Source: a virus. From it: 44,117 nucleotides of DNA. The notes under the pieces are model-generated. The model was not told where the DNA came from, ran no database searches, and was given only the letters and a program-made list of their open reading frames with translations. Location: positions 1-44,117 of IMG/VR virus record IMGVR_UViG_3300024346_000136; one strand, given 5' to 3'. Below, one piece after another: positions 89 through 41,505 of this stretch. Both the position numbers and the translations under genes were made by a program. Positions within the stretch are counted from its first letter, which is position 1; every line of letters starts with the position of its first letter.

Positions 89-292
89 ATGAGCGTAGAA
101 GAAGGATTACTAATTAGAAGATCAAGAAAGAAAAGTGGATATACTCAGCTAGAACTATGCAAGAAGCTAGGTCTAAGTCATGCCCCTATCAATCAAGTTG
201 AGAATGGATGGGAGTCAATCAGCCTTTTTAACCTGCGCATGATCTGTGAGGCTATAGGGTTAGAAGTAGTAATCAGAGAAAGGAATGGCTAG
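89..292 (+). CDS. XRE/Cro-CI family HTH regulator
   Basis: 67-residue protein that is almost entirely one helix-turn-helix domain: residues about 7-60 carry the XRE pattern (SRKKSGYTQLELCKKLGLS, then PINQVENG as recognition region). There is no dimerisation or protease-like C-terminal domain, so it resembles a small Cro-like regulator more than a CI repressor. It starts at ATG after an A-rich leader without Shine-Dalgarno, downstream of a TAnnTTTG promoter with an overlapping palindrome, which suggests autoregulation. It is the first gene of a rightward cluster and overlaps the next gene by 8 bases. No integrase is seen, so a lysogeny switch is not implied. Confidence 0.85.
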   Translation: MSVEEGLLIRRSRKKSGYTQLELCKKLGLSHAPINQVENGWESISLFNLRMICEAIGLEVVIRERNG

Positions 293-536
293 AACCCTGC
301 CCAAATCCAAGCTAGATTATTCTATTGAGATCCGCTATAAGGAATCAAGCGGTCAATGGTCTGCATGGATGAATAAAGGGAAAGGCAGCTTTCAAAGTAT
401 TGAGATAGTACAAAGGCAAATAAGACTTCTAGCGGCTTCATATTACGGCCGACAGAAGGAGATACGGTTTGAATGGAATGGATGGCTATGTGATTTTGCA
501 GGGCAGCCCACAGGCGAAGTAATAAGCCTGAAATGA
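285..536 (+). CDS. Small protein of unknown function
   Basis: 83 residues, not recognised. It is rich in aromatic and basic residues (GQWSAWMNKGKGSF at about 23-36, EIRFEWNGWLCDFAG near 59-73) and looks like a compact beta-rich fold. It overlaps the upstream XRE gene by 8 bases and the downstream sigma-like gene by 4 (ATGA), so it belongs to the same transcript. A divergent copy at 32150 keeps the reading frame with mainly conservative changes, supporting that it is a real gene. Confidence 0.7.
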   Translation: MARTLPKSKLDYSIEIRYKESSGQWSAWMNKGKGSFQSIEIVQRQIRLLAASYYGRQKEIRFEWNGWLCDFAGQPTGEVISLK

Positions 537-1018
537 AAGCGATTGGATGGCTATACGATCAGGAGTTCAAATATGTATTTCAGAACATAGGTAAAGACCT
601 ATGGGAAGATCTCAGGCAAGAGGTAGCGGTCATAGTCCTAGAGTACGATTCAGAAAAAATAAGGGAACTAGAAGCCAAAGGAAAGCAGGTTTTCAAGTTT
701 TGGATAGTTCGGATCTGCTGCAATCAAACTAATTCAAAGTACGGGAAGTTCGGAAGGCTTTACGGAAGCCTTATACCTGTGGAAGATATAATGAAATTTG
801 TAAAAGAAGAACAGCCAATCGATAATAGTCAAGAGGTAGCGGATGCGATAGCAAAGATAGTGCAGGGCTTGTATTGGTATGATCAAGAGATACTCAAGAT
901 GTATGTGGAACTAGGATCAGTCCGGAAGGTATCAAAGCAAACAGGCATTCCGCATACTTCAATTTTTATAACAATTAAAAAAATAAGATCATGTATCAAA
1001 TCGCAGTTGGTGTACTAG
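533..1018 (+). CDS. Sigma-70-like / sigma-factor-related DNA-binding protein
   Basis: 161 residues. The N-terminal part (about 10-37, with DLWEDLRQEVAVIVLEY) resembles the region 2 helix of small ECF-type sigma factors (D-L-x-Q-E), and the C-terminal 50 residues end in a helix-turn-helix resembling region 4 (SVRKVSKQTGIPHTSIFITI, then KKIRSCI). Known role of that fold: promoter recognition with host RNA polymerase. Inference: an early-encoded transcription factor that redirects host polymerase to phage genes. Similarity is judged by eye; a terminase-small-like or other HTH protein remains possible. The last 28 bases overlap the next gene. Confidence 0.55.
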   Translation: MKAIGWLYDQEFKYVFQNIGKDLWEDLRQEVAVIVLEYDSEKIRELEAKGKQVFKFWIVRICCNQTNSKYGKFGRLYGSLIPVEDIMKFVKEEQPIDNSQEVADAIAKIVQGLYWYDQEILKMYVELGSVRKVSKQTGIPHTSIFITIKKIRSCIKSQLVY

Positions 1019-1257
1019 GGTCGGTGGGGTTAACCCTGCTGTACTTTTACATCATAAATATTCCTGCTTTATTTACCAAGTTTACAAAGCGAAAACTAGT
1101 CAAGCCTTTTAGCTGCTCCTTTTGTATGTCCTTTTGGATCAGCCTATTTTATCTAGTCTTAAAAACGGATTTGCTTTCTGCAATATTTATAAGTAGCGCA
1201 GTCCCCTTTATTTACCTTTGGATTGAACAATATTTAACTAACAAATTTGAACTATGA
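991..1257 (+). CDS. Small membrane protein with CxxC motif (DUF1360-like)
   Basis: 88 residues with hydrophobic stretches at about 3-25, 46-58 and 62-80, and a CSFCMSFW motif near residue 42, which resembles the CPFC-x-x-x-W signature of DUF1360 membrane proteins. Function unknown. It overlaps its neighbours on both sides (28 bases upstream, ATGA downstream). The copy at 32856 differs over the first ~35 residues and is identical afterwards: the boundary of the identical block (position 1092) lies inside this gene. Confidence 0.65.
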   Translation: MYQIAVGVLGSVGLTLLYFYIINIPALFTKFTKRKLVKPFSCSFCMSFWISLFYLVLKTDLLSAIFISSAVPFIYLWIEQYLTNKFEL

Positions 1258-1607
1258 CACCAGAAGATTTAGAATTATTCAAGAAGCACATGCCCCTGTA
1301 CGAAAGCTACAAGAAGCATGCATTTATCCGTAATTATGACAAGGAAGTCTACACAGAATTAATCCACCTATACACTACCTATGTTTCACCTAAGCATAAC
1401 TTCAGCCATTGGTGCAGTAGCTGTCGGATGGAGTTAGTTAACTACTTGTATGGGTGGTACACGAACGAAGAAAATACTACTTGGTATCGGCAGCAAAGCG
1501 AAGAAAGTGCCGAAATATTGGAGGGGCTAGATGCGGCATTTGATGAAATAGAAAAGATAATTGAAAGCACTCCTGCAAAAAGAGGAAGAAAACCTAAAAC
1601 CACATAA
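1254..1607 (+). CDS. Unknown protein with AT-hook-like basic tail
   Basis: 117 residues, not recognised. Mostly helical in appearance, with a WCSSC cysteine pair near residue 53 and a basic end (AKRGRKPKTT) whose RGRKP resembles an AT-hook minor-groove binding motif. This hints at DNA binding but does not prove it. It starts at an ATGA overlap with the membrane protein gene and is followed after one base by the next start. Confidence 0.6.
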   Translation: MTPEDLELFKKHMPLYESYKKHAFIRNYDKEVYTELIHLYTTYVSPKHNFSHWCSSCRMELVNYLYGWYTNEENTTWYRQQSEESAEILEGLDAAFDEIEKIIESTPAKRGRKPKTT

Positions 1608-1608
1608 C

Positions 1609-1896
1609 ATGGACACCAAACCAAAAATAAGACTAGGCAACGGAAAGAAAAGAAGTGACTCTTGGCTGACTGCTGCGATATGCCTATCTGATTGCCATGC
1701 GCACGCCTACACCTACAACGGGAAGACTTATGTGAATGTGAATATCAACATTTTTGATAAGCCAAATGACTTCGGCAAGGATGTGGCTATTACCCTAAAC
1801 GATTACAAAAAGGAAGAAAATAACAATTCACAGGTTAACAAGATGCCTACTGCTCTTGCACCTGTACAGGAAGAAGAATACGATCTACCATTTTAA
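1609..1896 (+). CDS. Small protein with SSB-like acidic C-terminal tip
   Basis: 95 residues from the ATG at 1609, chosen because an in-frame upstream extension would lie entirely inside the previous gene. The centre (about 17-65) contains alternating hydrophobic residues typical of a small beta barrel (KTYVNVNINIFDKPNDFGKD), and the protein ends EEEYDLPF. Bacterial single-stranded-DNA-binding proteins end in a similar acidic tip (D-[LI]-P-F) that recruits replication and repair enzymes. Inference: small ssDNA-binding or SSB-tip-mimicking protein. No canonical SSB domain could be confirmed by eye. Confidence 0.5.
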   Translation: MDTKPKIRLGNGKKRSDSWLTAAICLSDCHAHAYTYNGKTYVNVNINIFDKPNDFGKDVAITLNDYKKEENNNSQVNKMPTALAPVQEEEYDLPF

Positions 1897-1907
1897 TAAA
1901 CCAAACC

Positions 1908-2102
1908 ATGTCAAACTTTCAATTAAATTTTAACAGCGAAAAAAAAGTGATCAGCATCACCCTTGACAATGAAGACGGAATCTTTGATCTCGCACATTTG
2001 TTTAAGAAGCTGCTAGACGATGCAGGGATCGCTAATAGCCTGGAAGAAAAGGACATCACACCTGTAGAACCTTTGCAAGTAGCCAACGAAAAACTAGACT
2101 AA
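1908..2102 (+). CDS. Small acidic protein, unknown
   Basis: 64 residues, not recognised. A beta-like start (FQLNFNSEKKVISITLD) is followed by a helix (LAHLFKKLLDDAGI) and an acidic tail. It is preceded by a typical A-rich leader (ataaaccaaacc then ATG) and its stop codon overlaps the start of the ParB-like gene by one base, so translation is probably coupled. Confidence 0.6.
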   Translation: MSNFQLNFNSEKKVISITLDNEDGIFDLAHLFKKLLDDAGIANSLEEKDITPVEPLQVANEKLD

Positions 2103-2725
2103 TGGAGATCAAGATCGTTAAGCTATCGGAGGTCAAGAGCAATCCAAATAACCCTAGGATTATCAAGGATGATAAGTTTAAAAAGCTAGTCAAATCTATT
2201 CAGGAGTTTCCAAAGATGCTTGAGATTAGGCCTATTGTGGTGAACGCTGATATGATAGTCCTAGGGGGAAACATGAGGCTAAAGGCCTGCAAGGAAGCAG
2301 GGCTGAAGGAAGTACCGGTGATCTTTGCGCATGACCTCACAGAGGAAGAACAGAAGCAGTTTATCATCAAGGACAATGTAGGCTTCGGTGAGTGGGACTG
2401 GGACATGATTGCTAATGAATGGGATGAATTAACACTAGAAGAATGGGGATTAGATCTTCCAATAGATGATAAGATAGATGAATTAGAAGAGGGTGAAACA
2501 TTAGATTTTGAACAGTCTGTTCAATTAATTCCGCCAAAAGAATATATTCTAATTATGGCAGATCCAAATTCTGAGGATTGGGAAGATTTAAAAAATGTTT
2601 TAAAGTTGAAAATGGTAAGGAGAGGAGGATATAAAGAAGGAAGCAAAGTAGATGCAATTAGTCTTGAACGGGTTTTATATTGGAATGATTTCAAAGAAAG
2701 ATATGCTGATAGCAATACCAAGTAA
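2102..2725 (+). CDS. ParB/Srx-like domain protein, partner of the downstream glycosyltransferase
   Basis: 207 residues. Residues 1-110 form a ParB-like nuclease/Srx domain: KIVKLSEVKSNPNNPR at the N-terminus and the GGNMRLKA motif (55-62) equivalent to the G-x-x-R active-site motif. The C-terminal third (about 145-200, with RRGGY and GSKVDA) is a separate conserved-looking region. ParB-like proteins of this kind occur in phages next to base-modifying enzymes and methyltransferases, where they are thought to act on nucleotides or DNA rather than in partition. G+C content drops sharply inside the gene near 2400, suggesting a recombination joint. It overlaps the next gene by 23 bases. Confidence 0.75.
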   Translation: MEIKIVKLSEVKSNPNNPRIIKDDKFKKLVKSIQEFPKMLEIRPIVVNADMIVLGGNMRLKACKEAGLKEVPVIFAHDLTEEEQKQFIIKDNVGFGEWDWDMIANEWDELTLEEWGLDLPIDDKIDELEEGETLDFEQSVQLIPPKEYILIMADPNSEDWEDLKNVLKLKMVRRGGYKEGSKVDAISLERVLYWNDFKERYADSNTK

Positions 2726-3419
2726 AAACAGAGCAGGAAAAACAACTACCAATAAAATACTGCCAAATATTGGTACTTTTTTTGTACCTGAAAGTGAATT
2801 ACATCAATACAACTACATAAAAAATGTAGTAGGTGTACCTAGTTCAGTTCAGGGAATAACTCAAACAAGGAATTGGATTTTAAAAAACACAGAAGAAAAG
2901 TGGGTAGTATTTCTTGATGATGATGCAAAATATGTAGGGTATACTGAAATGGGTAGAACTCAGGCAAAAAAGAAACATATTTCAGATGAAGGATTTTGGG
3001 CGGAAGAATTTGTCAAAGCATTTGATTTATGTGAACAATTAAATTTTAAAATGTGGGGTTTTAAAACTGAGGCAGCCCCTAGATCTGTTCATCCGTATAA
3101 ACCAATACTAATGAAAACCTATATAACTGCAAGTTGTATGGGAATGGTTAATGATGGAGAATTTTATTTTGATGAAAATTTTAAAGTAAAGGAAGACTAT
3201 GAAATATGCCTTAGACATATAGTCAAATATGGGGGTGTTCTTGGTATTAGATATGTTCATTGGGAAAATGAACATTGGAAAACTGAAGGAGGATGCAAAG
3301 ACTATAGGACTGTAGATATGGAAAGGGATGCAATAAAAAAACTAAATAAGTTGTATCCTGGAATGATCAGAAGTGCAAAAAGAAAGGCAAACACTTTTAC
3401 TATTCAATTAAACCTTTGA
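2703..3419 (+). CDS. TAGT-like DNA-base glycosyltransferase (GT-A fold)
   Basis: 238 residues from ATG 2703; an upstream in-frame start at 2652 lies deeper inside the ParB gene. It opens with a beta strand (MLIAIPSKNRAGK) and carries VVFLDDDAKYVG at 68-79, whose DDD (72-74) fits the metal/nucleotide-sugar DxD motif of GT-A glycosyltransferases; QTRNWIL (54-60) and EDYEICLR also fit the TET-associated glycosyltransferase family. Such enzymes are predicted to glycosylate modified bases in phage DNA, and they often sit beside ParB-like genes, as here. Strongly AT-rich compared with flanking genes. The acceptor base is not evident; no TET/JBP or hydroxymethylase gene was recognised in the window. 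Confidence 0.68.
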   Translation: MLIAIPSKNRAGKTTTNKILPNIGTFFVPESELHQYNYIKNVVGVPSSVQGITQTRNWILKNTEEKWVVFLDDDAKYVGYTEMGRTQAKKKHISDEGFWAEEFVKAFDLCEQLNFKMWGFKTEAAPRSVHPYKPILMKTYITASCMGMVNDGEFYFDENFKVKEDYEICLRHIVKYGGVLGIRYVHWENEHWKTEGGCKDYRTVDMERDAIKKLNKLYPGMIRSAKRKANTFTIQLNL

Positions 3420-3444
3420 CCAATATTGCACAAAAATAAACAAT

Positions 3445-3780
3445 ATGAAAAAGCCTGATAGATCCGTGATAGAGAAAGCAATTGTGAAGGCACTTGGTAA
3501 CCTTTCTACAGCCTCAAAGTCTTTGGGGGTAGAAAGGGCTACACTTTACAAATGGATTGAGCAGGAGGGCTTAGAAGAGGCTGTACAGGAAGGGAGAAAT
3601 AAGAGGCTTGACTTTGCCGAATCTATGCTCGATAAAGGGATGCTAGAGGGTAATATGACTGCGGTTATTTTTTACTTGAAAACACAGGGGAAATCTAGGG
3701 GCTATATCGAAAGACAGGAAATAACAGGCGCAGACGGGAAGAAACTATTTGAAGTAAAAATAGTTGATGACAGCAACTAG
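3445..3780 (+). CDS. Terminase small subunit
   Basis: 111 residues. An N-terminal helix-turn-helix (about 12-37, NLSTASKSLGVERATLYKWI) recognises DNA, and the C-terminal part contains FYLKTQGKSRGYIERQEI, a pattern frequent in terminase small subunits, followed by ITGADGKKL. Role: binds the packaging site and the large subunit. The stop codon lies 14 bases inside the next gene, which encodes the large subunit, confirming the pair. Confidence 0.8.
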   Translation: MKKPDRSVIEKAIVKALGNLSTASKSLGVERATLYKWIEQEGLEEAVQEGRNKRLDFAESMLDKGMLEGNMTAVIFYLKTQGKSRGYIERQEITGADGKKLFEVKIVDDSN

Positions 3781-4927
3781 TATCAAAACAAATAAGGTAT
3801 TCCGCCACCTTGAGAGTAGCAAATCAAAGATAGTAGTACAGCAAGGTGGCACTAGATCAGGGAAGACCTATAATATTCTTCTTTGGATTATTTTTTCATA
3901 CTGCCAAAGAAACGAAGGTAAGATTATCACAATATGCAGGAAGACCTACCCGGCTTTGAGGGGTACTGTCATGCGTGACTTCCTAACCATCCTGAAGGAT
4001 CACGAGATATACTCTGAAGATGACCACAGCAAGACAGCATCTGAATACAAGTTAAACAGCAACACGATAGAATTCATCTCACTTGATATGCCTCAAAAAA
4101 TCAGGGGTAGAAAGCGAGATCTACTTTTTTGTAATGAGGCTAATGAATTAACCTTTGAAGATTGGCAGCAGTTGCTTTTCCGTACAAATGAGAAGGTGAT
4201 CATTGACTTCAACCCTTCAGAGGAATTTCATTGGATATATGATCAGGTGCTACCTAGAAAGGATGTGGAATTCTATCAGACTACCTACAAGGATAACCCT
4301 TTCCTGGGGGCTGAGATCAAAGCAGAGATTGAAAGACTCAAGGAAATAGATGAAAACTATTGGAGGGTCTACGGCTTAGGAGAACGGGGGCAGGCTAGAT
4401 CCCTAGTATATACTTTCTCAACTACCAAAGAAATCCCAAAGGAAGCAAAGCTAGTAAGCTACGGCCTTGACTTTGGTTACTCAAGTGATCCTACTAGCTT
4501 GGTGAGAACCTACATTTTAGATGATAATATGTATGTCGATGAATTGTTATATCGCACAGGCATGACCAATCAGGACATAGCAAACGAAATGAAAGTATTG
4601 GGGTTAAATCGCAGTAATGAAATCTATGCCGATTCAGCAGAGCCGAAAAGTATTGAGGAGATATATAGGATGGGATGGAATGTAAAGCCTACCATTAAAG
4701 GATCTATCAACATAGGCATTGACATAATCAGGAGATACAAGCTGATCGCAACCGAAAGCAGCTTTAACCTGATCAAAGAATTAAGGAACTACAAATACAT
4801 AGAAGATAAAAACGGCTTACTAACCAACAAGCCTGTAGATAATTTCAATCACGCCTTGGATGCCCTGCGCTATTCGGTAGTCAATAAGATTTCAAAGAGT
4901 CATTTGGGCAGGTACTCCTTCAGATAA
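3767..4927 (+). CDS. Terminase large subunit (ATPase and nuclease)
   Basis: 386 residues from ATG 3767 (a TTG three bases upstream is also in frame). Walker A is GGTRSGKT at 27-34, Walker B LLFCNEA at 119-125. The C-terminal RNase H-like nuclease carries its acidic residues in YGLDFGYSSD (D235), IYADSAEP (D289) and NHALDALRY (D365). This is a complete motor that translocates DNA into the prohead and cuts it. Length is slightly short of the usual 400-500. It is separated from the portal gene by about 12.5 kb of tail genes, an uncommon order. Confidence 0.93.
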   Translation: MTATSIKTNKVFRHLESSKSKIVVQQGGTRSGKTYNILLWIIFSYCQRNEGKIITICRKTYPALRGTVMRDFLTILKDHEIYSEDDHSKTASEYKLNSNTIEFISLDMPQKIRGRKRDLLFCNEANELTFEDWQQLLFRTNEKVIIDFNPSEEFHWIYDQVLPRKDVEFYQTTYKDNPFLGAEIKAEIERLKEIDENYWRVYGLGERGQARSLVYTFSTTKEIPKEAKLVSYGLDFGYSSDPTSLVRTYILDDNMYVDELLYRTGMTNQDIANEMKVLGLNRSNEIYADSAEPKSIEEIYRMGWNVKPTIKGSINIGIDIIRRYKLIATESSFNLIKELRNYKYIEDKNGLLTNKPVDNFNHALDALRYSVVNKISKSHLGRYSFR

Positions 4928-4959
4928 AAACATCAAACCAATAAAATATATTTAAAGCC

Positions 4960-5562
4960 ATGTGGGACAAATTAACGGTCGGGCAGTTTATAACCTTGTA
5001 CGATATCGAGGTGAACGCAAATTTAAACATAATCGAGAAGCAGCAGAAAATGCTAGCGGTGATCGACGGTAAAAATGAGCGGGATTACGATGACTACAAG
5101 TACAGGGATTTAATCAAAGAGTATGGTGAAAAGCTATCTTTCTTTGATAATTTGCCTGAGACTAAGCCTGTCGACTATCTCCAAGTAGGGGATAACCGAT
5201 ACAAGTTTTGTTATGAAGTAAACGAAATCACGGCAGGGCAGTATATAGATATTCTAGCCTTTAGCGGTGAGATCATGCAGCTTAACAAGATTGCTGCCTG
5301 CTTCTTTCTACCCATGAAGGGCAAAAGATACCAAGGCTATGGGGTAGTGCCTCATGAGGTGGTGGCGGATGATTTGCTAGAAGCTAATTTCTTGCAAGTT
5401 TACGGGTGCATGCTTTTTTTTTGTCAATTATTCAACGAGTTAATAAGCAGTACCATAACCTCCTCAATCCAGAACAAGGAGATGGCGGAGAAGGCAGCCC
5501 GTTTATGGAACGTTGGGGGTGGGTATTTAGCACTAAACAGGTCGCAGACTTCAGCAATATAA
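4960..5562 (+). CDS. Tail assembly chaperone-like protein, zero-frame product
   Basis: 200 residues, starting MWDKLTVGQF. The body is helical and acidic, as in tail assembly chaperones; not a confident family match. Two features suggest a programmed frameshift gene like lambda G/GT: a T9 run (5414-5422) giving a T-TTT-TTT heptamer in the reading frame, and a second open frame (-1) that continues to 5687 with a well-formed sequence. The last ~15 residues of the zero frame (GGGYLALNRSQTSAI) look less protein-like than the -1 frame over the same bases. The identical second copy is at 36825. Confidence 0.65.
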   Translation: MWDKLTVGQFITLYDIEVNANLNIIEKQQKMLAVIDGKNERDYDDYKYRDLIKEYGEKLSFFDNLPETKPVDYLQVGDNRYKFCYEVNEITAGQYIDILAFSGEIMQLNKIAACFFLPMKGKRYQGYGVVPHEVVADDLLEANFLQVYGCMLFFCQLFNELISSTITSSIQNKEMAEKAARLWNVGGGYLALNRSQTSAI

Positions 5563-5687
5563 CGGTGAATCAAACCTACGATCTTAACGTGATCGAGTAC
5601 CTGAATTCATTAGCATATTTAAAGGATTATAACAAACACAAGGATTTAGAATATAAAAAATGGTCGTTGCAAGCCAAGCTAAAGTAG
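4960..5687 (+). CDS. -1 frameshift fusion of the tail assembly chaperone-like gene
   Basis: Predicted 242-residue product made by a -1 shift from the frame of 4960-5562 into the frame ending at 5687. Candidate slip sites are T-TTT-TTT at 5415-5421 and the G5 run in T-GGG-GGT at 5514-5520. Coding quality by eye favours the shift near the G run, because the zero frame still reads as a good helix up to EKAARLWN while the -1 frame reads WGWVFSTKQVADFSN and continues convincingly (NVIEYLNSLAYLKDYNKH). The extension overlaps the next gene by 28 bases. Both copies have the same bases, so a simple read error is less likely, though both come from one identical block. Confidence 0.55.
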
Positions 5688-6283
5688 ACGGTTTATTCAA
5701 TGTCAACGGGGTTAGATTAAACGCTAATCAATACATTCTCGATGTTGAGAATATGGCTGTTAATAATGTCAAAGATGCCATGCTAAAGCTAGGCGGAAAA
5801 ATTGTACTTAACCTAGCAAAGTATTCACCTAATGATCAAGGCACTCTAAACTCTTCTTATAAGGTGCTAGGAGTAAGTGAAACTAAGACAGGTTATAGGC
5901 TAGAAATTAGCGTAGGGGCTGAGTATTCAGATTACCAAGACAAAGGGGTAAAGGGTATTAAAAACACACGCAAGACCTACCCAAATGCAGAGGGCAGATA
6001 CTATCAATTTAAAACATATAGTATGCCTGTAGAAGCCTTGCAAAAATTAGAAGGGTGGATGAAAAGAAAAAATATGGAGATCGAAGCAACTAATTTAATT
6101 GAGGGGCGCAATATGCTACCACAGATTTCAAGTAGTGCAAAGCGATTAGCTTACTATATTAAAAAATACGGTATTGAAGGAAAGCAATTTATAAAAAAGT
6201 CAATCAATGAATCAATTCCAGATTTCAATGTTGATGTGCAATCCATTGGAGCAGACTCACTAACTTTAAGAATAAGCAAATGA
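5660..6283 (+). CDS. Tail completion / HK97 gp10-like protein
   Basis: 207 residues. The segment LEISVGAEYSDYQDKGVKG (about 82-100) is the region seen in HK97 gp10-like and related neck or tail completion proteins, where a beta strand precedes an x-Y-A/S-x-Y-x-x-x-G pattern. A second conserved-looking part is RLAYYIKKYGIEGKQFIKKS near the C-terminus. Likely at the head-tail junction. It overlaps the frameshifted chaperone-like frame upstream by 28 bases and the next gene by 4 (ATGA). Confidence 0.55.
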   Translation: MVVASQAKVDGLFNVNGVRLNANQYILDVENMAVNNVKDAMLKLGGKIVLNLAKYSPNDQGTLNSSYKVLGVSETKTGYRLEISVGAEYSDYQDKGVKGIKNTRKTYPNAEGRYYQFKTYSMPVEALQKLEGWMKRKNMEIEATNLIEGRNMLPQISSSAKRLAYYIKKYGIEGKQFIKKSINESIPDFNVDVQSIGADSLTLRISK

Positions 6284-7461
6284 TAACCCTAGTCCAACCT
6301 ACCAATAGTATCCTGCCTGCATTCAATCGTATCAACTACACGATCAGCAGCAACAACGCAAACCTATCAGGCTTCAAATATGTGGTGAAGGTTTTCAATA
6401 TTGCAAACGAGTTAATCACTCAGGCATTCTATGACTCCCCGGCTAACCCTGCGGATTCTGTCGAGTTTGATGTGAGCAAATTTGTATCTGTAAACTTTAC
6501 TTATTCAAGTGGATTCTATCAGGTAGCAACATCGGCTAGCAATACCAACATAATCAAAGGCTACTATCTTAAATGCTATGAATACTACGAGGTTGCAGGG
6601 GTGTTTCAGATCGTCTCAGCTTCAGAGGTGGTAAGTGCTACCAAGTATGCCTTGGCTGCTTCTTTGCCTTTGCTAGAAGAAAATAGTTTTGCTACGGATC
6701 TAAGTCAATACAACGGGGTAAGCAATACAAACTACCTACCACTAAGCGAATGGACTACGATCAAAGCAAGGGAAACCGATGCGACAATATTCGGCTTCCT
6801 TAATACAAACCTTTTGACTAACTGCGAACTACTAGTAACCTATGCAAATGCTACTACATCGACCTACTATATCACACCTGCTGCGGTTGCTACTCCAAGC
6901 GTCACCTACATACAGATAACACCTTTGACCTATGGGGGAAGCATCGACAATATTCAGGTCTTTGCAAATTGGAATAACGGATCAGCAAGGCGGGCAAAGT
7001 TTGCAACTATCTACATTCAGTCCTGCGGTAAATTTGACCCTATGCGCTTGGCTTACTTAAACAAGTACGGTGTTTATGACTTCTTTAATTTTGACCTAGT
7101 AAGCAAGACTACCTTTGATGTAGAAAAGAAAGGATACGAGAGGAACTACTCAGGTAGCATCTATGAAGCCGATGGGGTAAGGGTTAAAAATATCAATCCA
7201 ATCTACTACACAAAGGAAACCCAAAAGTGGAAGATCATAAGCGACTATTTAACGGATGCACAAGCCGAAATCCTGCGGGAGTTGTACTCGTCCCCTTTGG
7301 TATACATGAACTTGGTGAATGATAACTACATCAGCCCGTCATGGATACCTGCGAAGCCTACAGCGACCTCCTACGAGGTTAAAAAGACTGCGGTGGATAA
7401 AGTATTCAATATTGAACTAGACCTTGAATTTCAGCTTATAAACAATCGACAGGTAATATGA
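6280..7461 (+). CDS. Putative distal tail / minor tail protein
   Basis: 393 residues, beta-rich throughout with many Thr, Ser, Asn and aromatic residues and no catalytic motif that I recognise. It begins MITLVQPTNSILPAFNRINY. Position between a tail completion protein and the large hub-like protein, with ATGA overlaps on both sides, supports a baseplate or tail-tip role. Exact assignment (distal tail versus adaptor) is inference from order only. Confidence 0.5.
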   Translation: MITLVQPTNSILPAFNRINYTISSNNANLSGFKYVVKVFNIANELITQAFYDSPANPADSVEFDVSKFVSVNFTYSSGFYQVATSASNTNIIKGYYLKCYEYYEVAGVFQIVSASEVVSATKYALAASLPLLEENSFATDLSQYNGVSNTNYLPLSEWTTIKARETDATIFGFLNTNLLTNCELLVTYANATTSTYYITPAAVATPSVTYIQITPLTYGGSIDNIQVFANWNNGSARRAKFATIYIQSCGKFDPMRLAYLNKYGVYDFFNFDLVSKTTFDVEKKGYERNYSGSIYEADGVRVKNINPIYYTKETQKWKIISDYLTDAQAEILRELYSSPLVYMNLVNDNYISPSWIPAKPTATSYEVKKTAVDKVFNIELDLEFQLINNRQVI

Positions 7462-9635
7462 GCGCAAGACTATTTGTAGAAGGCTATGAAGCAGACACCC
7501 TTGGGGATATCGATGTTGAGTTTACCTTTTCGGTTGCAGATATTAGTGATATCGAGCGTAGAAATACTAGCTTTTCCAAGACTTTAACCCTACCAAGTAC
7601 TGCAAGAAATCAGCAGCTATTCGGGAACATCTTTGACATCTCAGTTTCAAATGATATCATAGTAGGGGCTAACATAGGTCAGAACTTTAATCCTGCAAAA
7701 CAGGCGAAAGCCCAAATCTTCTTGGATAACGTGAAGATCTTTGACGGTGTTTTAAGGATGTCTAAGATCAGCAACAAATCAGGGGACATAGTTTACGAGG
7801 TTAATATGTTTGGCAGGTTACGGGACATCCTAGATGCCTTGGGAGACCTTACCCTAGCAGATCTAAACTTTGATAACTATGACCACACCTACAATCAGGC
7901 AAATATTGAAGCAAGTTGGGCAAGAACAGAGTGGGTATCTGGGGCGCAGAACTATGTCTACCCTTTGGTCGATTACGGATACAGCGCAAACAACATAAAC
8001 TACCCTTTAAAAAACTTTAAGCCGGCAGTATTTGTAACCGAGATTCTAAAGAGAATATTTGAGGATGCAAAATTTGTTATTACTGCACCGATCTTTGAAT
8101 CCTTCTTTTTTAGGAAGCTAATTTTATTGACGGCAGAAAAGAATATCACTAGGGAAGTTCTAAATTTGCTAGATCAGAGAACAAACCTGCTTATTCAGAA
8201 CGTAACTTCTACACCTAGCTTTTCACAACTTTTAGTTTTTAATAGTGTGTCTGCACCTAGCTTTACGATTAGTAATGGAGGCACTAAATTTACTTACAAT
8301 AAAACTCAGGGTTTAAATACAGGTCTTAACTTTAATGTAAGCCTCAGTCTTACTTCTTTAGAAACCTTTACAAAGAATCAGTGGACTATAATTGTTTTAA
8401 AAAATGGGTCGCAAATTTTATCTGAAACCGAGTTAGTAACTATCGTACCATTAGGGGGAACATATACTTACAATTTTGCACTTAGCGGAGGAATAACCCT
8501 TGCATTAGGTGACTACTTTGAGATAAGGCTAACCGGTCAAGCTATTGGAGGAGGCGGTTATAATTCTAACATTCAGAATAGGGTAACAATAGCACCGGGA
8601 GGAGCGTTAAAGATTGGCAGTTCAATACCTGTGGCAGTCGATGTAGTAGAGGGTGACACGATGAAGATTAATTATACGATGCCGAAATCTATGAAGCAGC
8701 GGGACTTCCTCAAGTCTATTATCTCGATGTACAATTTGTACATAACTCAGGACAAGCTGCAAACCAACATACTCGAGATCATCCCATATAATGAGTTCTT
8801 TAAAACCTTTAAGAATGAGGCCATAGATTGGAGCGACAAGCTAGATGTATCCCAAGAGGTGATAATAACCCCTTTGAGCGAATTATCAGCAAAGGAATAT
8901 CGTCTTATGTTTGACGATGACAGCGACTATTGGAGTCAAAGCTATAAGACCAAATTCAATGAAGGATATGGGGAAAAACGGGAAGTAATTCCGAATGATT
9001 TTGTCACAGAAACCAAATCCGTGAAGGTAGTTTTTGCGCCTCCTGTTATGCGAGAAGAACTAGCAGGAAGGGTTATGGTTCACCTTTACAAAGTTGAAAA
9101 CAACGTAAAGATTCCAGACAACTTCAAGCCGAGAATAGTATTCTTTGCACCACAAACCCCCTGCCCTACAACTTGGCAGATTCAGTATGCAGCAGGTGCG
9201 GTGACCTATAACTCCTACCCCTATGCAGGTCACGTTAACAGTTTGACAGATCCTGCTTTTGATCAACTATTCCACTATCCAAAGGAGGTATATTTTGCTA
9301 TCGGGGCTTATCCTGAAAATTCAAACCTTTATACAGAGTACTACGATACCTTAATCACTTCGATAGGTGACAGGAACAGCAGGCTTTTACAGGGGTATTT
9401 CTATTTGACTCCAATGGATATTTCAAACTTGGATTTTAGGAAGATCATAAAAGTAGGCAATCACTTCTTTCAGTTGCAGAAGGTGGATAAGTACAACCCG
9501 ATTGCAAACGGGCTTAGTTATGTTTCATTATTCAAGATACTAGGGGAACTTGAGCCACAGGATTATGATTACATCCTTCTGGAGAATGACTTCTATATGT
9601 TACAAGAAAACGGGGTTAATAAGTTTTATATTTAA
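7458..9635 (+). CDS. Large tail protein, baseplate hub-like
   Basis: 725 residues. The start (MSARLFVEGYEADTLGDIDV, then RRNTSFSKTLTLPSTARN at about 35-52) resembles large structural proteins of Bacteroidota phages in which an R-x-x-x-x-S-K-T-x-x-L-P motif is common. A beta-rich insert covers about 245-400, then a helix-strand region (MKQRDFLKSIISMYNLYITQ at about 413-432) that resembles hub proteins. The end (YILLENDFYMLQEN) leads into the fibre gene 5 bases later. Tail-tip hub or fibre attachment is inferred. Confidence 0.55.
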   Translation: MSARLFVEGYEADTLGDIDVEFTFSVADISDIERRNTSFSKTLTLPSTARNQQLFGNIFDISVSNDIIVGANIGQNFNPAKQAKAQIFLDNVKIFDGVLRMSKISNKSGDIVYEVNMFGRLRDILDALGDLTLADLNFDNYDHTYNQANIEASWARTEWVSGAQNYVYPLVDYGYSANNINYPLKNFKPAVFVTEILKRIFEDAKFVITAPIFESFFFRKLILLTAEKNITREVLNLLDQRTNLLIQNVTSTPSFSQLLVFNSVSAPSFTISNGGTKFTYNKTQGLNTGLNFNVSLSLTSLETFTKNQWTIIVLKNGSQILSETELVTIVPLGGTYTYNFALSGGITLALGDYFEIRLTGQAIGGGGYNSNIQNRVTIAPGGALKIGSSIPVAVDVVEGDTMKINYTMPKSMKQRDFLKSIISMYNLYITQDKLQTNILEIIPYNEFFKTFKNEAIDWSDKLDVSQEVIITPLSELSAKEYRLMFDDDSDYWSQSYKTKFNEGYGEKREVIPNDFVTETKSVKVVFAPPVMREELAGRVMVHLYKVENNVKIPDNFKPRIVFFAPQTPCPTTWQIQYAAGAVTYNSYPYAGHVNSLTDPAFDQLFHYPKEVYFAIGAYPENSNLYTEYYDTLITSIGDRNSRLLQGYFYLTPMDISNLDFRKIIKVGNHFFQLQKVDKYNPIANGLSYVSLFKILGELEPQDYDYILLENDFYMLQENGVNKFYI

Positions 9636-9640
9636 GAATT

Positions 9641-11347
9641 ATGGCAGATAAGCGAATAAGTCAACTAGTAGATCGGGGCACGGTAGTTAATAACGATGTA
9701 GTACCTATCGTAGTAAGTGGGGCTACCACTACAAACAAGGCAACTATATCAAGTATTCAAACCTTCATGCAGGGTAACCTTGATCTAGGGGTTACTTCTG
9801 TAGGCATAACCATAGGTACTTCAGGAACAAATGTAAGTGTGACGGGGTCACCTGTGACAAGTTCTGGAAACATCACTATCAATATCCCTACTGCATCCGC
9901 TACTAATCGAGGGGCTTTGTCTTCTGCTGATTGGTCTACTTTTAACGGGAAGCAAAATGCTTTAACTAACCCAATCACAGGCACAGGGGCAACAGGTCAA
10001 GTAGCTTATTGGAATGGTACTAATTCTCAGACGGGAAGCAATAACCTATTTTGGGATAATGCTAATGTAAAGTTGGGCATAGGTACAAATACACCTGAAT
10101 CAACGGGTCTTACTATTGCAGGTGGAGGGATGATAGTTAGTCTTGATTCAGGTTCTGCTAGAAAAGTATTAGAACTTTATGCTACAAGTACAGGTGCAAA
10201 AGTATCTTCATCTTATGTCGGTGCTTCATCTTATGGTAGTTTAGAATTATTAACTTCAGGATTGCCAAGACTAACCATAGCCGACACGGGCGGTGTAACT
10301 TTGACAGGTGCTTTGAACGGGACTAGTGCTAGTTTTAGTGGGAATGGTTCTTTCGGTGGTGCTGCTGCAAATGTCAATCCTTTGTATGTTAAAACAGCAA
10401 CAGATAGTAACCTTAGAGTAACGGATGCCGCAGGAACTTTGCAAATAGCAGTTGTAAACGATGCAGTAAATGCTCATAGACCTTTTATGTTAGGCAACGG
10501 CTGGCTTAATTTTACTAACACAGGCGCGGCTACCTTCTCAAGTAGCGTGACGGCTAGCGGTTTACTATCTACTAATGATAGACTATATATGCCTGGAAAT
10601 CAACCAATTTCAAATTGGTTTTCAAGTAGTTTATCGGCGGGATATAGTTCGAGCAATGGATATGGTTGGGTAAATGGAGCGGGAAATCTAGTACTTGGAA
10701 CTGATGGTGTTGAACGAATGCGCATCACCTCGGCAGGCAACGTAGGCATCGGCACGGCTAGTCCTGTCACGGCATTGACAATATTTAATAATTCAAGCGG
10801 ATTAAGATTTCAAAATTCTACCACGGGCATCGGAAGTGGTGATGGTTCTGATTTATTTTTAGATGGAAGTGATTTTTATATTAGAAACATCGAAAGCGGG
10901 TTTATTGGTTTTGCAACTGCTAACACCGAACGAATGCGCATTACTTCGGTAGGCTATCTTCGTATGGCATCGGGAACGGGAGGTATCCAATTCAACGGAG
11001 ACACGGCAGCGGCTAATGCTTTAAATGATTATGAGGAGGGGACTTGGACACCGACAATTGGCGGAACTTGGATAACAAACCCAACAAGCTTATCAGGTCT
11101 ATATACAAAAATAGGGAACATGGTATATATTCGTTTAGAATTTACAGGCGGAGTAAAAGCCACTACTACTTCAGGATGGATTAATGGTTTACCTTTTAGT
11201 GGTGCAGTTGGTGGGGGTGGTACTGTCTCAAATGTAAGTGTTCAAAATAGAGGCATTGCACTTTTAGATAATAACACTAGAATTTGGTTAACTGAACTTG
11301 ATTTTCTTGGTTTAAGTACTAAGGTAATGGCATCGTATAGACTATAA
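9641..11347 (+). CDS. Tail fibre / receptor-binding protein, variant 1 (no S74 chaperone)
   Basis: 568 residues. The N-terminal 214 residues (start MADKRISQLVDRGTVVNNDV) are identical to the second-copy fibre and probably attach to the tail. The middle has collagen-free fibre repeats ending in variants of ERMRITSAGNVGIGTASP (about residues 357-374), with a second ERMRITS near 430. The C-terminal ~105 residues begin with YEEGTWTPTIGG and continue through YTKIGNMVYIRLEF, a tip domain found in many environmental phage fibres. No autocleavage domain is present. Divergence from the other variant starts at 10283. Role: host recognition at the cell surface. Confidence 0.75.
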   Translation: MADKRISQLVDRGTVVNNDVVPIVVSGATTTNKATISSIQTFMQGNLDLGVTSVGITIGTSGTNVSVTGSPVTSSGNITINIPTASATNRGALSSADWSTFNGKQNALTNPITGTGATGQVAYWNGTNSQTGSNNLFWDNANVKLGIGTNTPESTGLTIAGGGMIVSLDSGSARKVLELYATSTGAKVSSSYVGASSYGSLELLTSGLPRLTIADTGGVTLTGALNGTSASFSGNGSFGGAAANVNPLYVKTATDSNLRVTDAAGTLQIAVVNDAVNAHRPFMLGNGWLNFTNTGAATFSSSVTASGLLSTNDRLYMPGNQPISNWFSSSLSAGYSSSNGYGWVNGAGNLVLGTDGVERMRITSAGNVGIGTASPVTALTIFNNSSGLRFQNSTTGIGSGDGSDLFLDGSDFYIRNIESGFIGFATANTERMRITSVGYLRMASGTGGIQFNGDTAAANALNDYEEGTWTPTIGGTWITNPTSLSGLYTKIGNMVYIRLEFTGGVKATTTSGWINGLPFSGAVGGGGTVSNVSVQNRGIALLDNNTRIWLTELDFLGLSTKVMASYRL

Positions 11348-30468: not shown

Positions 30469-31272
30469 ATGGAAATTAATAGGATATATAATGAAAGTAA
30501 TCTTGAAACCATGAAAAGGATGCCTGATAATTACATAGATTTGACTGTAACTTCACCACCTTATGATGACTTGCGTGATTATAATGGTTATTCTTTCCCG
30601 TTTGAAGAAATAGCATTTCAACTTTTTAGAGTTACAAAAATCGGGGGTGTTTTGGTTTGGGTTGTAGGTGATGCTGTAGTAAATGGATCAGAAACAGGCT
30701 CTTCTTTTAAGCAAGTTTTATTCTTTAAGGAATGCGGTTTTAATATTCATGATACCATGATTTATTCAAAAACTCCTAGTTTCCCTGCTAAAAATGGAGA
30801 TAAAAGATATTCTCAGGCTTTTGAATATATGTTTATTTTAAGCAAAGGAAGTCCAAAAACTGTCAATTTATTGCAGGACAGAAAAAATAAATGGGGAGGT
30901 CATCAATCATGGGGTAATGCTTCTGTTAGATTAAAGAATGGAGAGATAAAAGAAAAGGATAAAATCAATGTTCAGGAATATGGGTATAGGTTTAATATCT
31001 GGGAATATGCTACAGGGAAAGGAAATACTACCAGAGATGAAATAGCCTTTCAGCATCCTGCAATGTTCCCCGAAAAATTAGCAGAAGACCATATTTTAAC
31101 CTGGAGCAATGAGAATGATTTAGTCTATGATTGTTTTGGTGGAAGTGGCACTACTGCTAAAATGGCTAATAAATGGCGAAGGAATTGGATACTTTCAGAA
31201 ATAAGTTCTGAATATGTTGAAATAGCAAAAAAAAGAATAGAACCATATTTATCACAGACTACATTATTCTAA
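30469..31272 (+). CDS. DNA methyltransferase, N4-cytosine/N6-adenine class
   Basis: 267 residues. TSPPY at 28-32 is the catalytic motif IV and FGGSGTT at 223-229 the SAM-binding motif I, in the beta-type order (catalytic first). Target may be A(N6) or C(N4). No restriction enzyme is adjacent, so it is probably a solitary protective or regulatory methylase. AT-rich compared with the helicase gene, and a second AT-rich gene after the ParB/TAGT cassette, so probably acquired. Confidence 0.8.
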   Translation: MEINRIYNESNLETMKRMPDNYIDLTVTSPPYDDLRDYNGYSFPFEEIAFQLFRVTKIGGVLVWVVGDAVVNGSETGSSFKQVLFFKECGFNIHDTMIYSKTPSFPAKNGDKRYSQAFEYMFILSKGSPKTVNLLQDRKNKWGGHQSWGNASVRLKNGEIKEKDKINVQEYGYRFNIWEYATGKGNTTRDEIAFQHPAMFPEKLAEDHILTWSNENDLVYDCFGGSGTTAKMANKWRRNWILSEISSEYVEIAKKRIEPYLSQTTLF

Positions 31273-32060: not shown

Positions 32061-32149
32061 GTGATCCCACCTGCCTACAAATGGGATGTGAGTTGTTAGT
32101 AGGTAGCCTTTCTTATTACGGCATAAATGCCACAAATAGAAAATAGAAA
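32061..32149 (+). other. Strain-specific intergenic insertion with hairpins
   Basis: In the first copy the XRE gene overlaps the next gene; here about 100 bases are added. CTGCCTAC (32071-32078) and GTAGGTAG (32099-32106) can pair (one G-T) around a 20-base loop, and GGCA-taaa-TGCC (32120-32131) is a small hairpin. No ORF. Possible terminator/attenuator that separates XRE from the operon. Confidence 0.5.
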
Positions 32150-32401
32150 ATGGCTAGAGGGCTGCCCAAATCGCAACTAGATTATTCACTTGAGATCCGC
32201 TACAAGCTTTCAAGCGGTGAGTGGTCTGCATGGATGAATAAGGGAAAAGGATGCTTTCAAAGTATTGAGATAGTACAAAGGCAGATAAGACTCCTTGCAG
32301 CCTCATATTATGGCCGTCAGAAGGAAATCAGGTTTGAATGGAATGGATGGCTTTGTGATTTTGCAGGGCTTCCCACAGGCGAAGTAATCAGCCTGAAATG
32401 A
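32150..32401 (+). CDS. Second-strain allele of the 285-536 protein
   Basis: 83 residues, same length; differs at several positions (for example MARG versus MART, LSSGEW versus ESSGQW, GCF versus GSF). Start context differs because of the upstream insertion, which confirms the ATG. Function unknown. Confidence 0.7.
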   Translation: MARGLPKSQLDYSLEIRYKLSSGEWSAWMNKGKGCFQSIEIVQRQIRLLAASYYGRQKEIRFEWNGWLCDFAGLPTGEVISLK

Positions 32402-32883
32402 AAGCGATCGGATGGCTATATGATCAGGAGTTTAAATATGTATTTCAGAATATAGGTAAGGATCTATGGGAAGATCTTAGGCAGGAGGTGGCGGTGATCG
32501 TGCTAGAATACGATGCCAATAAATTGCAGGAACTAGAAGCCAAGGGAAAGCAGGTATTTAAGTTCTGGATAGTTCGGATCTGCTGCAATCAAACGAATAG
32601 CAAATATGGGAAGTTCGGCAGGCTATACGGAAGCCTTCTACCGGTGGAGGATATTATGAAATTTGTGAAGGAAGAACACCCAATAGATAACAGTCAAGAG
32701 GTAGCCGATGCGATAGCAAAGATAGTTCAGGGCTTATATTGGTATGATCAGGAGATCCTGAGAATGTATGTGGAACTTGGTTCAGTCAGGAAGGTATCAA
32801 AGCAAACAGGCATTCCGCACACTTCAATTTTTATAACAATTAAAAAAATTAGATCATGTATCAAATCGCAGTTAGTGTATTAG
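32398..32883 (+). CDS. Sigma-like protein, second-strain allele
   Basis: 161 residues; differences concentrate in the linker (ANKLQ versus SEKIR) while the putative region-2 and region-4-like helices are unchanged, consistent with a conserved function. Confidence 0.55.
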   Translation: MKAIGWLYDQEFKYVFQNIGKDLWEDLRQEVAVIVLEYDANKLQELEAKGKQVFKFWIVRICCNQTNSKYGKFGRLYGSLLPVEDIMKFVKEEHPIDNSQEVADAIAKIVQGLYWYDQEILRMYVELGSVRKVSKQTGIPHTSIFITIKKIRSCIKSQLVY

Positions 32884-33122
32884 GGGCAATCGGGATAACC
32901 CTGATCTATTTCTACATTCTAAACTTTCCTAAATTTTTTAAGGAAGTCACAGGCAAAAAACTAGTCAAGCCTTTTAGCTGCTCCTTTTGTATGTCCTTTT
33001 GGATCAGCCTATTTTATCTAGTCTTAAAAACGGATTTGCTTTCTGCAATATTTATAAGTAGCGCAGTCCCCTTTATTTACCTTTGGATTGAACAATATTT
33101 AACTAACAAATTTGAACTATGA
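32856..33122 (+). CDS. CxxC membrane protein, second-strain allele
   Basis: 88 residues; residues before about 36 differ (VSVLGAIGITLIYFYILNF), residues after are identical because the identical block begins at 32957. The CxxC motif is unchanged. Confidence 0.65.
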   Translation: MYQIAVSVLGAIGITLIYFYILNFPKFFKEVTGKKLVKPFSCSFCMSFWISLFYLVLKTDLLSAIFISSAVPFIYLWIEQYLTNKFEL

Positions 33123-33472
33123 CACCAGAAGATTTAGAATTATTCAAGAAGCACATGCCCCTGTACGAAAGCTACAAGAAGCATGCATTTATCCGTAATT
33201 ATGACAAGGAAGTCTACACAGAATTAATCCACCTATACACTACCTATGTTTCACCTAAGCATAACTTCAGCCATTGGTGCAGTAGCTGTCGGATGGAGTT
33301 AGTTAACTACTTGTATGGGTGGTACACGAACGAAGAAAATACTACTTGGTATCGGCAGCAAAGCGAAGAAAGTGCCGAAATATTGGAGGGGCTAGATGCG
33401 GCATTTGATGAAATAGAAAAGATAATTGAAAGCACTCCTGCAAAAAGAGGAAGAAAACCTAAAACCACATAA
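33119..33472 (+). CDS. AT-hook-tailed unknown protein (second copy)
   Basis: Identical to 1254-1607. Confidence 0.6.
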   Translation: MTPEDLELFKKHMPLYESYKKHAFIRNYDKEVYTELIHLYTTYVSPKHNFSHWCSSCRMELVNYLYGWYTNEENTTWYRQQSEESAEILEGLDAAFDEIEKIIESTPAKRGRKPKTT

Positions 33473-33473
33473 C

Positions 33474-33761
33474 ATGGACACCAAACCAAAAATAAGACTA
33501 GGCAACGGAAAGAAAAGAAGTGACTCTTGGCTGACTGCTGCGATATGCCTATCTGATTGCCATGCGCACGCCTACACCTACAACGGGAAGACTTATGTGA
33601 ATGTGAATATCAACATTTTTGATAAGCCAAATGACTTCGGCAAGGATGTGGCTATTACCCTAAACGATTACAAAAAGGAAGAAAATAACAATTCACAGGT
33701 TAACAAGATGCCTACTGCTCTTGCACCTGTACAGGAAGAAGAATACGATCTACCATTTTAA
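33474..33761 (+). CDS. SSB-tip-like small protein (second copy)
   Basis: Identical to 1609-1896. Confidence 0.5.
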   Translation: MDTKPKIRLGNGKKRSDSWLTAAICLSDCHAHAYTYNGKTYVNVNINIFDKPNDFGKDVAITLNDYKKEENNNSQVNKMPTALAPVQEEEYDLPF

Positions 33762-33772
33762 TAAACCAAACC

Positions 33773-33967
33773 ATGTCAAACTTTCAATTAAATTTTAACA
33801 GCGAAAAAAAAGTGATCAGCATCACCCTTGACAATGAAGACGGAATCTTTGATCTCGCACATTTGTTTAAGAAGCTGCTAGACGATGCAGGGATCGCTAA
33901 TAGCCTGGAAGAAAAGGACATCACACCTGTAGAACCTTTGCAAGTAGCCAACGAAAAACTAGACTAA
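33773..33967 (+). CDS. Small acidic protein (second copy)
   Basis: Identical to 1908-2102. Confidence 0.6.
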   Translation: MSNFQLNFNSEKKVISITLDNEDGIFDLAHLFKKLLDDAGIANSLEEKDITPVEPLQVANEKLD

Positions 33968-34590
33968 TGGAGATCAAGATCGTTAAGCTATCGGAGGTCA
34001 AGAGCAATCCAAATAACCCTAGGATTATCAAGGATGATAAGTTTAAAAAGCTAGTCAAATCTATTCAGGAGTTTCCAAAGATGCTTGAGATTAGGCCTAT
34101 TGTGGTGAACGCTGATATGATAGTCCTAGGGGGAAACATGAGGCTAAAGGCCTGCAAGGAAGCAGGGCTGAAGGAAGTACCGGTGATCTTTGCGCATGAC
34201 CTCACAGAGGAAGAACAGAAGCAGTTTATCATCAAGGACAATGTAGGCTTCGGTGAGTGGGACTGGGACATGATTGCTAATGAATGGGATGAATTAACAC
34301 TAGAAGAATGGGGATTAGATCTTCCAATAGATGATAAGATAGATGAATTAGAAGAGGGTGAAACATTAGATTTTGAACAGTCTGTTCAATTAATTCCGCC
34401 AAAAGAATATATTCTAATTATGGCAGATCCAAATTCTGAGGATTGGGAAGATTTAAAAAATGTTTTAAAGTTGAAAATGGTAAGGAGAGGAGGATATAAA
34501 GAAGGAAGCAAAGTAGATGCAATTAGTCTTGAACGGGTTTTATATTGGAATGATTTCAAAGAAAGATATGCTGATAGCAATACCAAGTAA
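33967..34590 (+). CDS. ParB-like protein (second copy)
   Basis: Identical to 2102-2725, including the base-composition break inside the gene. Confidence 0.75.
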   Translation: MEIKIVKLSEVKSNPNNPRIIKDDKFKKLVKSIQEFPKMLEIRPIVVNADMIVLGGNMRLKACKEAGLKEVPVIFAHDLTEEEQKQFIIKDNVGFGEWDWDMIANEWDELTLEEWGLDLPIDDKIDELEEGETLDFEQSVQLIPPKEYILIMADPNSEDWEDLKNVLKLKMVRRGGYKEGSKVDAISLERVLYWNDFKERYADSNTK

Positions 34591-35284
34591 AAACAGAGCA
34601 GGAAAAACAACTACCAATAAAATACTGCCAAATATTGGTACTTTTTTTGTACCTGAAAGTGAATTACATCAATACAACTACATAAAAAATGTAGTAGGTG
34701 TACCTAGTTCAGTTCAGGGAATAACTCAAACAAGGAATTGGATTTTAAAAAACACAGAAGAAAAGTGGGTAGTATTTCTTGATGATGATGCAAAATATGT
34801 AGGGTATACTGAAATGGGTAGAACTCAGGCAAAAAAGAAACATATTTCAGATGAAGGATTTTGGGCGGAAGAATTTGTCAAAGCATTTGATTTATGTGAA
34901 CAATTAAATTTTAAAATGTGGGGTTTTAAAACTGAGGCAGCCCCTAGATCTGTTCATCCGTATAAACCAATACTAATGAAAACCTATATAACTGCAAGTT
35001 GTATGGGAATGGTTAATGATGGAGAATTTTATTTTGATGAAAATTTTAAAGTAAAGGAAGACTATGAAATATGCCTTAGACATATAGTCAAATATGGGGG
35101 TGTTCTTGGTATTAGATATGTTCATTGGGAAAATGAACATTGGAAAACTGAAGGAGGATGCAAAGACTATAGGACTGTAGATATGGAAAGGGATGCAATA
35201 AAAAAACTAAATAAGTTGTATCCTGGAATGATCAGAAGTGCAAAAAGAAAGGCAAACACTTTTACTATTCAATTAAACCTTTGA
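34568..35284 (+). CDS. TAGT-like glycosyltransferase (second copy)
   Basis: Identical to 2703-3419. Confidence 0.68.
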   Translation: MLIAIPSKNRAGKTTTNKILPNIGTFFVPESELHQYNYIKNVVGVPSSVQGITQTRNWILKNTEEKWVVFLDDDAKYVGYTEMGRTQAKKKHISDEGFWAEEFVKAFDLCEQLNFKMWGFKTEAAPRSVHPYKPILMKTYITASCMGMVNDGEFYFDENFKVKEDYEICLRHIVKYGGVLGIRYVHWENEHWKTEGGCKDYRTVDMERDAIKKLNKLYPGMIRSAKRKANTFTIQLNL

Positions 35285-35309
35285 CCAATATTGCACAAAA
35301 ATAAACAAT

Positions 35310-36792: not shown

Positions 36793-36824
36793 AAACATCA
36801 AACCAATAAAATATATTTAAAGCC

Positions 36825-37427: not shown

Positions 37428-37552
37428 CGGTGAATCAAACCTACGATCTTAACGTGATCGAGTACCTGAATTCATTAGCATATTTAAAGGATTATAACAA
37501 ACACAAGGATTTAGAATATAAAAAATGGTCGTTGCAAGCCAAGCTAAAGTAG
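36825..37552 (+). CDS. -1 frameshift fusion (second copy)
   Basis: Identical to 4960-5687; candidate slip sites at 37280-37286 (T-TTT-TTT) and 37379-37385 (T-GGG-GGT). Confidence 0.55.
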
Positions 37553-41500: not shown

Positions 41501-41505
41501 GAATT

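Follow-up and report, generated by a model that had tools for sequence, protein, structure and literature searches.

What does a ParB-like gene do beside a lone glycosyltransferase gene, just upstream of a phage terminase, when no enzyme is recognized that would prepare a DNA base to receive a sugar? Such a pair occupies positions 2102-3419 of the window analyzed here, a 44,117-nucleotide stretch that comprises positions 1 to 44,117 of the IMG/VR virus record IMGVR_UViG_3300024346_000136. A first-pass annotation, made from the sequence alone, had proposed the two genes as a candidate DNA hypermodification cassette. Our comparison of this locus with its relatives suggests that the two genes probably form a self-contained module, exchangeable among phages, for the glycosylation of phage DNA. 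This level of confidence applies to DNA glycosylation as such, which is a predicted activity.

The first open reading frame (ORF) of the pair (2102-2725; all features of the cassette and its borders lie on the plus strand) encodes a 207-aa protein with a match to ParB_N (PF02195, E 7.9e-8, above the curated Pfam cutoff) and with sequence matches to the structures of Spo0J, Noc, and ParB. The GGNMR motif singled out in the first-pass annotation is found at residues 55-59 (2264-2278), and G56, R59, and A62 are invariant among 26 aligned ParBs. The counterpart of R59 in other ParB-fold proteins is the P-motif arginine, substitution of which abolishes binding (PMC12704722), and its retention in all 26 sequences, together with the ParB_N profile match, places the protein among those with a ParB-CTPase fold. 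A helix-turn-helix DNA-binding domain was not found, PF02195 being the sole Pfam match above cutoff in the protein, and no ParA was found among the window ORFs scanned with Pfam. The protein is thus not a canonical ParABS partition ParB, which would combine a helix-turn-helix domain with a neighboring parA. Its N-terminal ParB_N domain (2102-2461) is the constant part, common to loci that carry other cargo. The C-terminal tail (2462-2725), which we propose as a dock for the glycosyltransferase, is delimited by a tail profile, a homology breakpoint, and base composition. The tail profile matches all 37 distinct ParBs that precede a glycosyltransferase of the window-type clade and none of the 82 that precede other cargo or none. 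The N-terminal domain has a GC content of 45%, which drops to 31% for the tail and stays low, at 32%, across the glycosyltransferase gene, a contrast that is clear in close relatives only. The AlphaFold model of the ParB protein is poor (predicted local distance difference test score [pLDDT] 69.5), with the tail modeled at low confidence; no fold could be assigned to the tail, whose one weak match (E 0.036) is to the ParB tail of L078, a locus with a TAGT of a sister clade.

The second gene (2703-3419) encodes a 238-aa GT-A glycosyltransferase of the TAGT (TET-associated glycosyltransferase) family. It matches PF20691 with an E-value of 5.1e-10 and a score of 40.1 bits against a curated cutoff of 27.5, and it also matches phrog_842, annotated as beta-glucosyl-HMC-alpha-glucosyltransferase. 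The FLDDD motif reported earlier lies at 2910-2924, its DDD (residues 72-74) at 2916-2924; the latter is invariant in 22 relatives, and a KEDY motif around residue 165 and a GG at residues 196-197 are also conserved within the clade. D73, D74, D165, and the GG are kept in TET-linked TAGTs as well as in stand-alone ones. An AlphaFold model built from 22 relatives (pLDDT 88, predicted template modeling score 0.87) has a GT-A fold. Its top viral matches in Foldseek are mostly proteins named as TAGTs or glycosyltransferases (E about 1e-15, TM about 0.8), including the beta-glucosyl-HMC-alpha-glucosyltransferase of Klebsiella phage PKO111 (TM 0.78), and its structural matches in the PDB are GT-A enzymes (Z 13-15); when the glycosyltransferase profile was run against the sequences of solved structures, no match was returned. 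By both the Pfam cutoff and a GT-A fold with a DxD-type metal motif, this protein is a member of the TAGT family, and the profile searches suggested as a check on the first-pass annotation returned ParB_N and TAGT rather than unrelated families. The gene overlap described there is also real, although its extent depends on the start codon: the longest-ORF call begins at 2652, but relatives support an ATG at 2703, where we place the start because the resulting 23-nt overlap with ParB is conserved (50 of 56 loci; 32 of 36 distinct proteins). In a tree of 52 TAGT sequences, 40 window-type sequences form one clade (support 98/96), which is distinct both from the sampled TET-linked TAGTs and from a sister group to which Streptococcus phage Javan291 belongs; the tree contains several long branches, and its deeper joins are unsure.

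Relatives of the locus were gathered by scans with ParB and with TerL. In these phages the interval that follows a 64-aa gene and precedes TerS-TerL is empty or filled by a single cassette with the same ParB_N at its head, and a census of 54 nonredundant loci with TerL at least 90% identical counted 26 filled and 28 empty sites. The left border in the window is the 64-aa gene at 1908-2102, which is present in filled and empty relatives, and the right border is a terminase small subunit-like (TerS) gene at 3445-3780 (phrog_309, E 5e-6), followed by the terminase large subunit gene (TerL) at 3764-4927 (PF04466, E 8.9e-20). The complete ParB-glycosyltransferase cassette measures 1,327 bp (2103-3429); empty-site relatives, L136 among them, have about 6 bp in its place. 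In that comparison, left-flank homology ends with the TAA stop of the 64-aa gene (2102), and right-flank homology begins again at 3430, which is 15 bp short of the TerS start. The window has a ParB_N gene together with a predicted modification enzyme between the 64-aa gene and TerS. Cargo called by Pfam in the slot, over close and more distant relatives, includes an N6_N4 methylase fused to ParB, Mom, a C5 methylase, and TET_JBP combined with TAGT, with an FkbM-type methyltransferase, or with an ADDT-family (ADDT-like) protein. Other loci hold a histidine-phosphatase/cytidylyltransferase with TAGT, a PAPS-reductase/DUF3440 protein accompanied by a second ParB, a fusion of ABC-ATPase and GNAT, or a pair of TAGTs. 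The phages with TerL at least 90% identical account for the methylases, Mom, the three TET_JBP combinations, the ABC-ATPase/GNAT fusion, and the pair of TAGTs. The cultured Bacteroides phage BS-TP3 has the same gene order with a methyltransferase as cargo. Because the other occupants of the slot in relatives are DNA-modification enzymes, DNA is the probable target of the window cassette as well. The presence of N6/N4 and C5 methylases, Mom, TET/JBP, and ADDT in the slot of close relatives thus upholds the original reading as a DNA-modification cassette, with hypermodification itself inferred from sequence.

The way in which the slot is refilled points to a unit smaller than the cassette. DNA homology (80-86%) to phages with other cargo stops inside ParB, at 2455-2470 in most comparisons and earlier, at 2424-2430, in L066 and L071; right-flank homology, where shared, mostly restarts at 3421-3431. 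In a viral collection, the ParB tail lies directly upstream of the glycosyltransferase in all 36 distinct relatives with upstream sequence, and in the closest relatives both genes are under purifying selection (nonsynonymous divergence, dN, about 0.06; synonymous divergence, dS, about 0.9). The pairing noted in the first-pass annotation is therefore constant and not a product of chance. The terminase beyond the pair varies among relatives from >90% identical down to undetectable; in L014, for example, the neighbors have been swapped and the pair kept (ParB 76%, glycosyltransferase 82%, TerL 21%). ParB and the glycosyltransferase are the sole gene families common to all nine genomes or partial records compared, including that of Javan291, a Streptococcus marmotae prophage and the only match when phage sequences were searched by tblastn with the glycosyltransferase as query. 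A scan of genome contigs for hosts returned only two metagenome-assembled genomes, one of them from Planctomycetota (L202), in which the protein that precedes the tail has no ParB_N match in Pfam. L042 has the tail and glycosyltransferase after a divergent ParB_N. Based on the breakpoint inside ParB, the linkage of tail and glycosyltransferase, and the arrangements in L042 and L202, the moving unit is the ParB tail plus the glycosyltransferase, joined to a resident ParB_N.

Several other cassettes in this slot are of interest in their own right. An ABC-ATPase/GNAT fusion of about 356 aa is the sole cargo after ParB in L081, L090, L096, L110, L117, L120, and L176, and is possibly a DNA-modifying acyltransferase, uncharacterized so far. 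In L070 (3488-5300) and L073, a histidine phosphatase/cytidylyltransferase fusion adjoins TAGT after ParB (L070), and perhaps the L070 fusion makes its own CDP-activated donor. Two different TAGTs follow ParB in L199 (3217-4673) without TET, which suggests that sugar is added in two steps. An ADDT-family (amino acid:DNA transferase) protein or a relative lies beside TET_JBP after ParB in L068 (7572-9662) and L071 (6507-8851), and these cassettes are candidates for amino-acid hypermodification. The slot of L077 (703-3665) holds a PAPS-reductase/DUF3440 protein and a second ParB_N protein, resembling an IbrA/IbrB-like pair. In L170 (around 380) and L179 (around 1070), a TAGT of the cytidylyltransferase-linked type lies several kb upstream of an empty ParB slot and possibly marks a second modification locus.

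An enzyme that would supply a hydroxyl was sought in the window and in 18 other records with a stand-alone TAGT, of which many may be fragments, while the window covers its genome more than once. TET/JBP (PF12851) was detected in 0 of these 19 records and in 5 of 5 positive controls, and C5 methylase in 0 of 19 and in 2 of 2 controls. Thymidylate synthase/hydroxymethylase (PF00303) gave no match above cutoff in the 19 records and was found in nine control genomes. A genome profile search with PF20691 missed the TAGT of the window itself, and negatives obtained by that method were weighted by the positive controls. The lack of TET/JBP and hydroxymethylase reported in the first-pass annotation thus extends to the other stand-alone-TAGT records. 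With neither TET/JBP nor a dCMP hydroxymethylase found, the locus fits neither a TET/JBP-dependent system nor one of T-even hydroxymethylcytosine (hmC) glucosylation. A scan of the main ORFs of the window revealed only one further modification gene, a separate N6/N4 DNA methylase on the plus strand at 30469-31272 (PF01555, E 3.5e-39) that the first-pass annotation did not mention. We rejected this methylase as an obligate partner, since none of the other stand-alone-TAGT records tested has it, whereas two phages with an empty slot do; its sporadic distribution among relatives makes it unlikely to be required. In a separate observation, no C5 cytosine methylase was recognizable in the TET_JBP phages L069 and L111 (contigs G018 and G019, about 32 kb); the substrate of their TET may therefore be thymine or 5-methylcytosine made by the host.

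Combining these results, a mechanism can be proposed in which the ParB_N domain, predicted to bind nucleoside triphosphate, would load or position the complex on DNA while the ParB tail would dock and carry the glycosyltransferase. The latter would act late in infection, moving a sugar from a host nucleotide-sugar onto bases of phage DNA after its replication and before packaging, and the sugared DNA would be shielded from restriction enzymes or CRISPR nucleases. Since no hydroxylase was found in phages that carry the pair, none may be needed, a step that is much weaker than the assignment of DNA as the target. Likewise, since no partner enzyme is common to these phages, the acceptor would most simply be a group already present in ordinary DNA, such as an exocyclic amine; this is the least certain step of the proposal, and we advance it only tentatively. 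Our combined picture, that a canonical base is glycosylated directly without prior hydroxylation and that the cassette is one allele of a terminase-linked hotspot where recombination joins a constant ParB_N loader to different DNA-modifying effectors, each bringing its own docking tail, is likewise put forward as a conjecture, held at somewhat less than even confidence.

Some considerations weigh against this picture. DNA modification by the pair is a prediction from sequence comparison, and given the poor ParB model, docking by the tail is a proposal of what it may do. The TAGT fold is near those of GT2-type enzymes acting on teichoic acid, proteins, or a nucleoside 3'-OH, so the fold does not fix the substrate. 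The absence of TET comes from profile searches, which a wholly novel or host hydroxylase would escape. All DNA glycosyltransferases known to us use a hydroxyl acceptor. The substrate of the characterized TAGT, that of T6, is a sugar that the DNA already carries and not a bare base (PMC13216743).

In a first alternative, the cassette has the same DNA-glycosylating role but a host oxygenase or an unrecognized phage gene provides the acceptor hydroxyl, as a hydroxymethyl or hydroxyl base, and the TAGT finishes the modification in the manner of classical TAGT systems. Characterized phage DNA glycosyltransferases take such an acceptor, as in the T-even phages (PMC13216743, PMC13390438), and TET-linked TAGTs are found in the same slot of relatives. 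We consider this arrangement possible but doubtful: the nine genomes with the pair share no third gene family, the TET, C5 methylase, and thymidylate-synthase/hydroxymethylase families were not found in the 19 records, and the TET-linked TAGTs sampled fall outside the window clade. The related pairs in a Streptococcus prophage and a Planctomycetota metagenome-assembled genome also make a single shared host enzyme less likely. A second alternative is that the substrate of the glycosyltransferase is not DNA but, for example, a protein of the capsid or terminase or a glycan on the host surface, and that the gene owes its place by ParB and the terminase to an accident of late-gene organization. 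The cassette does adjoin the terminase, and most GT-A relatives of solved structure have glycans, teichoic acid, or proteins as substrates; however, the cassette trades places with methylases, Mom, TET, and ADDT, all of which have the constant ParB_N head, and the top viral structural matches are TAGT-type, making this explanation improbable. Still less credible is that ParB, as a partition or nuclease protein, acts separately and merely precedes the glycosyltransferase: ParB_N proteins elsewhere do have partition, nuclease, and regulatory roles (PMC5512222), but here the adjacency is invariant, the overlap conserved, and the tail specific to the glycosyltransferase clade, the same ParB_N is fused to methylases in sister phages, and no ParA was found among the Pfam-scanned window proteins.

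The genomic setting explains why the pair appears twice in the window. The contig represents about 1.4 turns of a ~31.9-kb genome, a size that relatives of 31.6-32.3 kb fit, and a second ParB-glycosyltransferase copy therefore lies on the plus strand at 33967-35284, offset by 31,865 and identical in sequence to the first. In the repeat (284-10341 versus 32149-42206), about 9 kb is identical but the arms diverge (87-94%), a pattern suggestive of two strains or variants assembled together. A tail fiber-like gene has one allele per turn, of 568 aa (9641-11347) and 782 aa (41506-43854); by eye, the C-terminal end of the 782-aa allele resembles an S74-type intramolecular chaperone domain, which the 568-aa allele lacks. 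The window also encodes a 119-aa phage protein (26390-26749) with an RNA polymerase alpha C-terminal domain (PF03118, E 7e-14).

If the proposed activity is correct, these phages would sugar their DNA with two genes and no hydroxylase, yielding a nucleoside not seen before, and the two-gene system would be a simple DNA-labeling tool. The hotspot also offers natural comparison sets, with near-identical terminases and one differing modification cassette, in which effects on defense would be directly comparable. Neither the pairing of this ParB tail with a lone TAGT nor the exchange slot was found described in the papers searched, and an earlier partial description is possible. A 2013 survey of DNA base modification systems reportedly mentions ParB neighbors of phage TET genes.

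Among known systems, the T6-type TAGT of T-even phages belongs to the same Pfam family (PF20691) and has the same GT-A fold as the window enzyme. It reportedly attaches a second glucose to DNA that bears glucosyl-hmC (PMC13216743) and works after a hydroxymethylase and an alpha-glucosyltransferase, neither of which was found here, whereas the window enzyme is paired with ParB instead. Of 753 phages with homologs of T-even-type glycosyltransferases, 288 have TAGTs without any known companion glycosyltransferase, which is unexplained (PMC13216743), and the window pair bears on this open point. Phage TET/JBP and TAGT cassettes, as in the sister phages L065, L138, L072, L166, and L111, occupy the same kind of slot behind the same ParB_N head, but the window lacks TET/JBP and has a different glycosyltransferase clade and a different ParB tail. 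Mom (PF25680), known for adenine modification in phage Mu, is a single enzyme in the same ParB-headed slot of L058, L061, and L097, although it differs from the window enzyme in kind and in chemistry. DpdB, a ParB-like ATPase serving the Dpd (7-deazaguanine) DNA base modification system (PMC12839542), likewise joins a ParB-like protein to a base-modifying enzyme, the likeness being known for ParB_N only; its partner is a TGT-type base exchanger, while that of the window ParB is a glycosyltransferase. Finally, ParB folds fused to DNA methylases are known in phages, and ParB-methyltransferase fusions are able to bind ATP (PMC12704722). The ParB-N6/N4 methylase fusions (phrog_498) have the same ParB_N (about 67-85% identical) in the same place before the terminase, but in the window the effector is a separate, overlapping glycosyltransferase gene.
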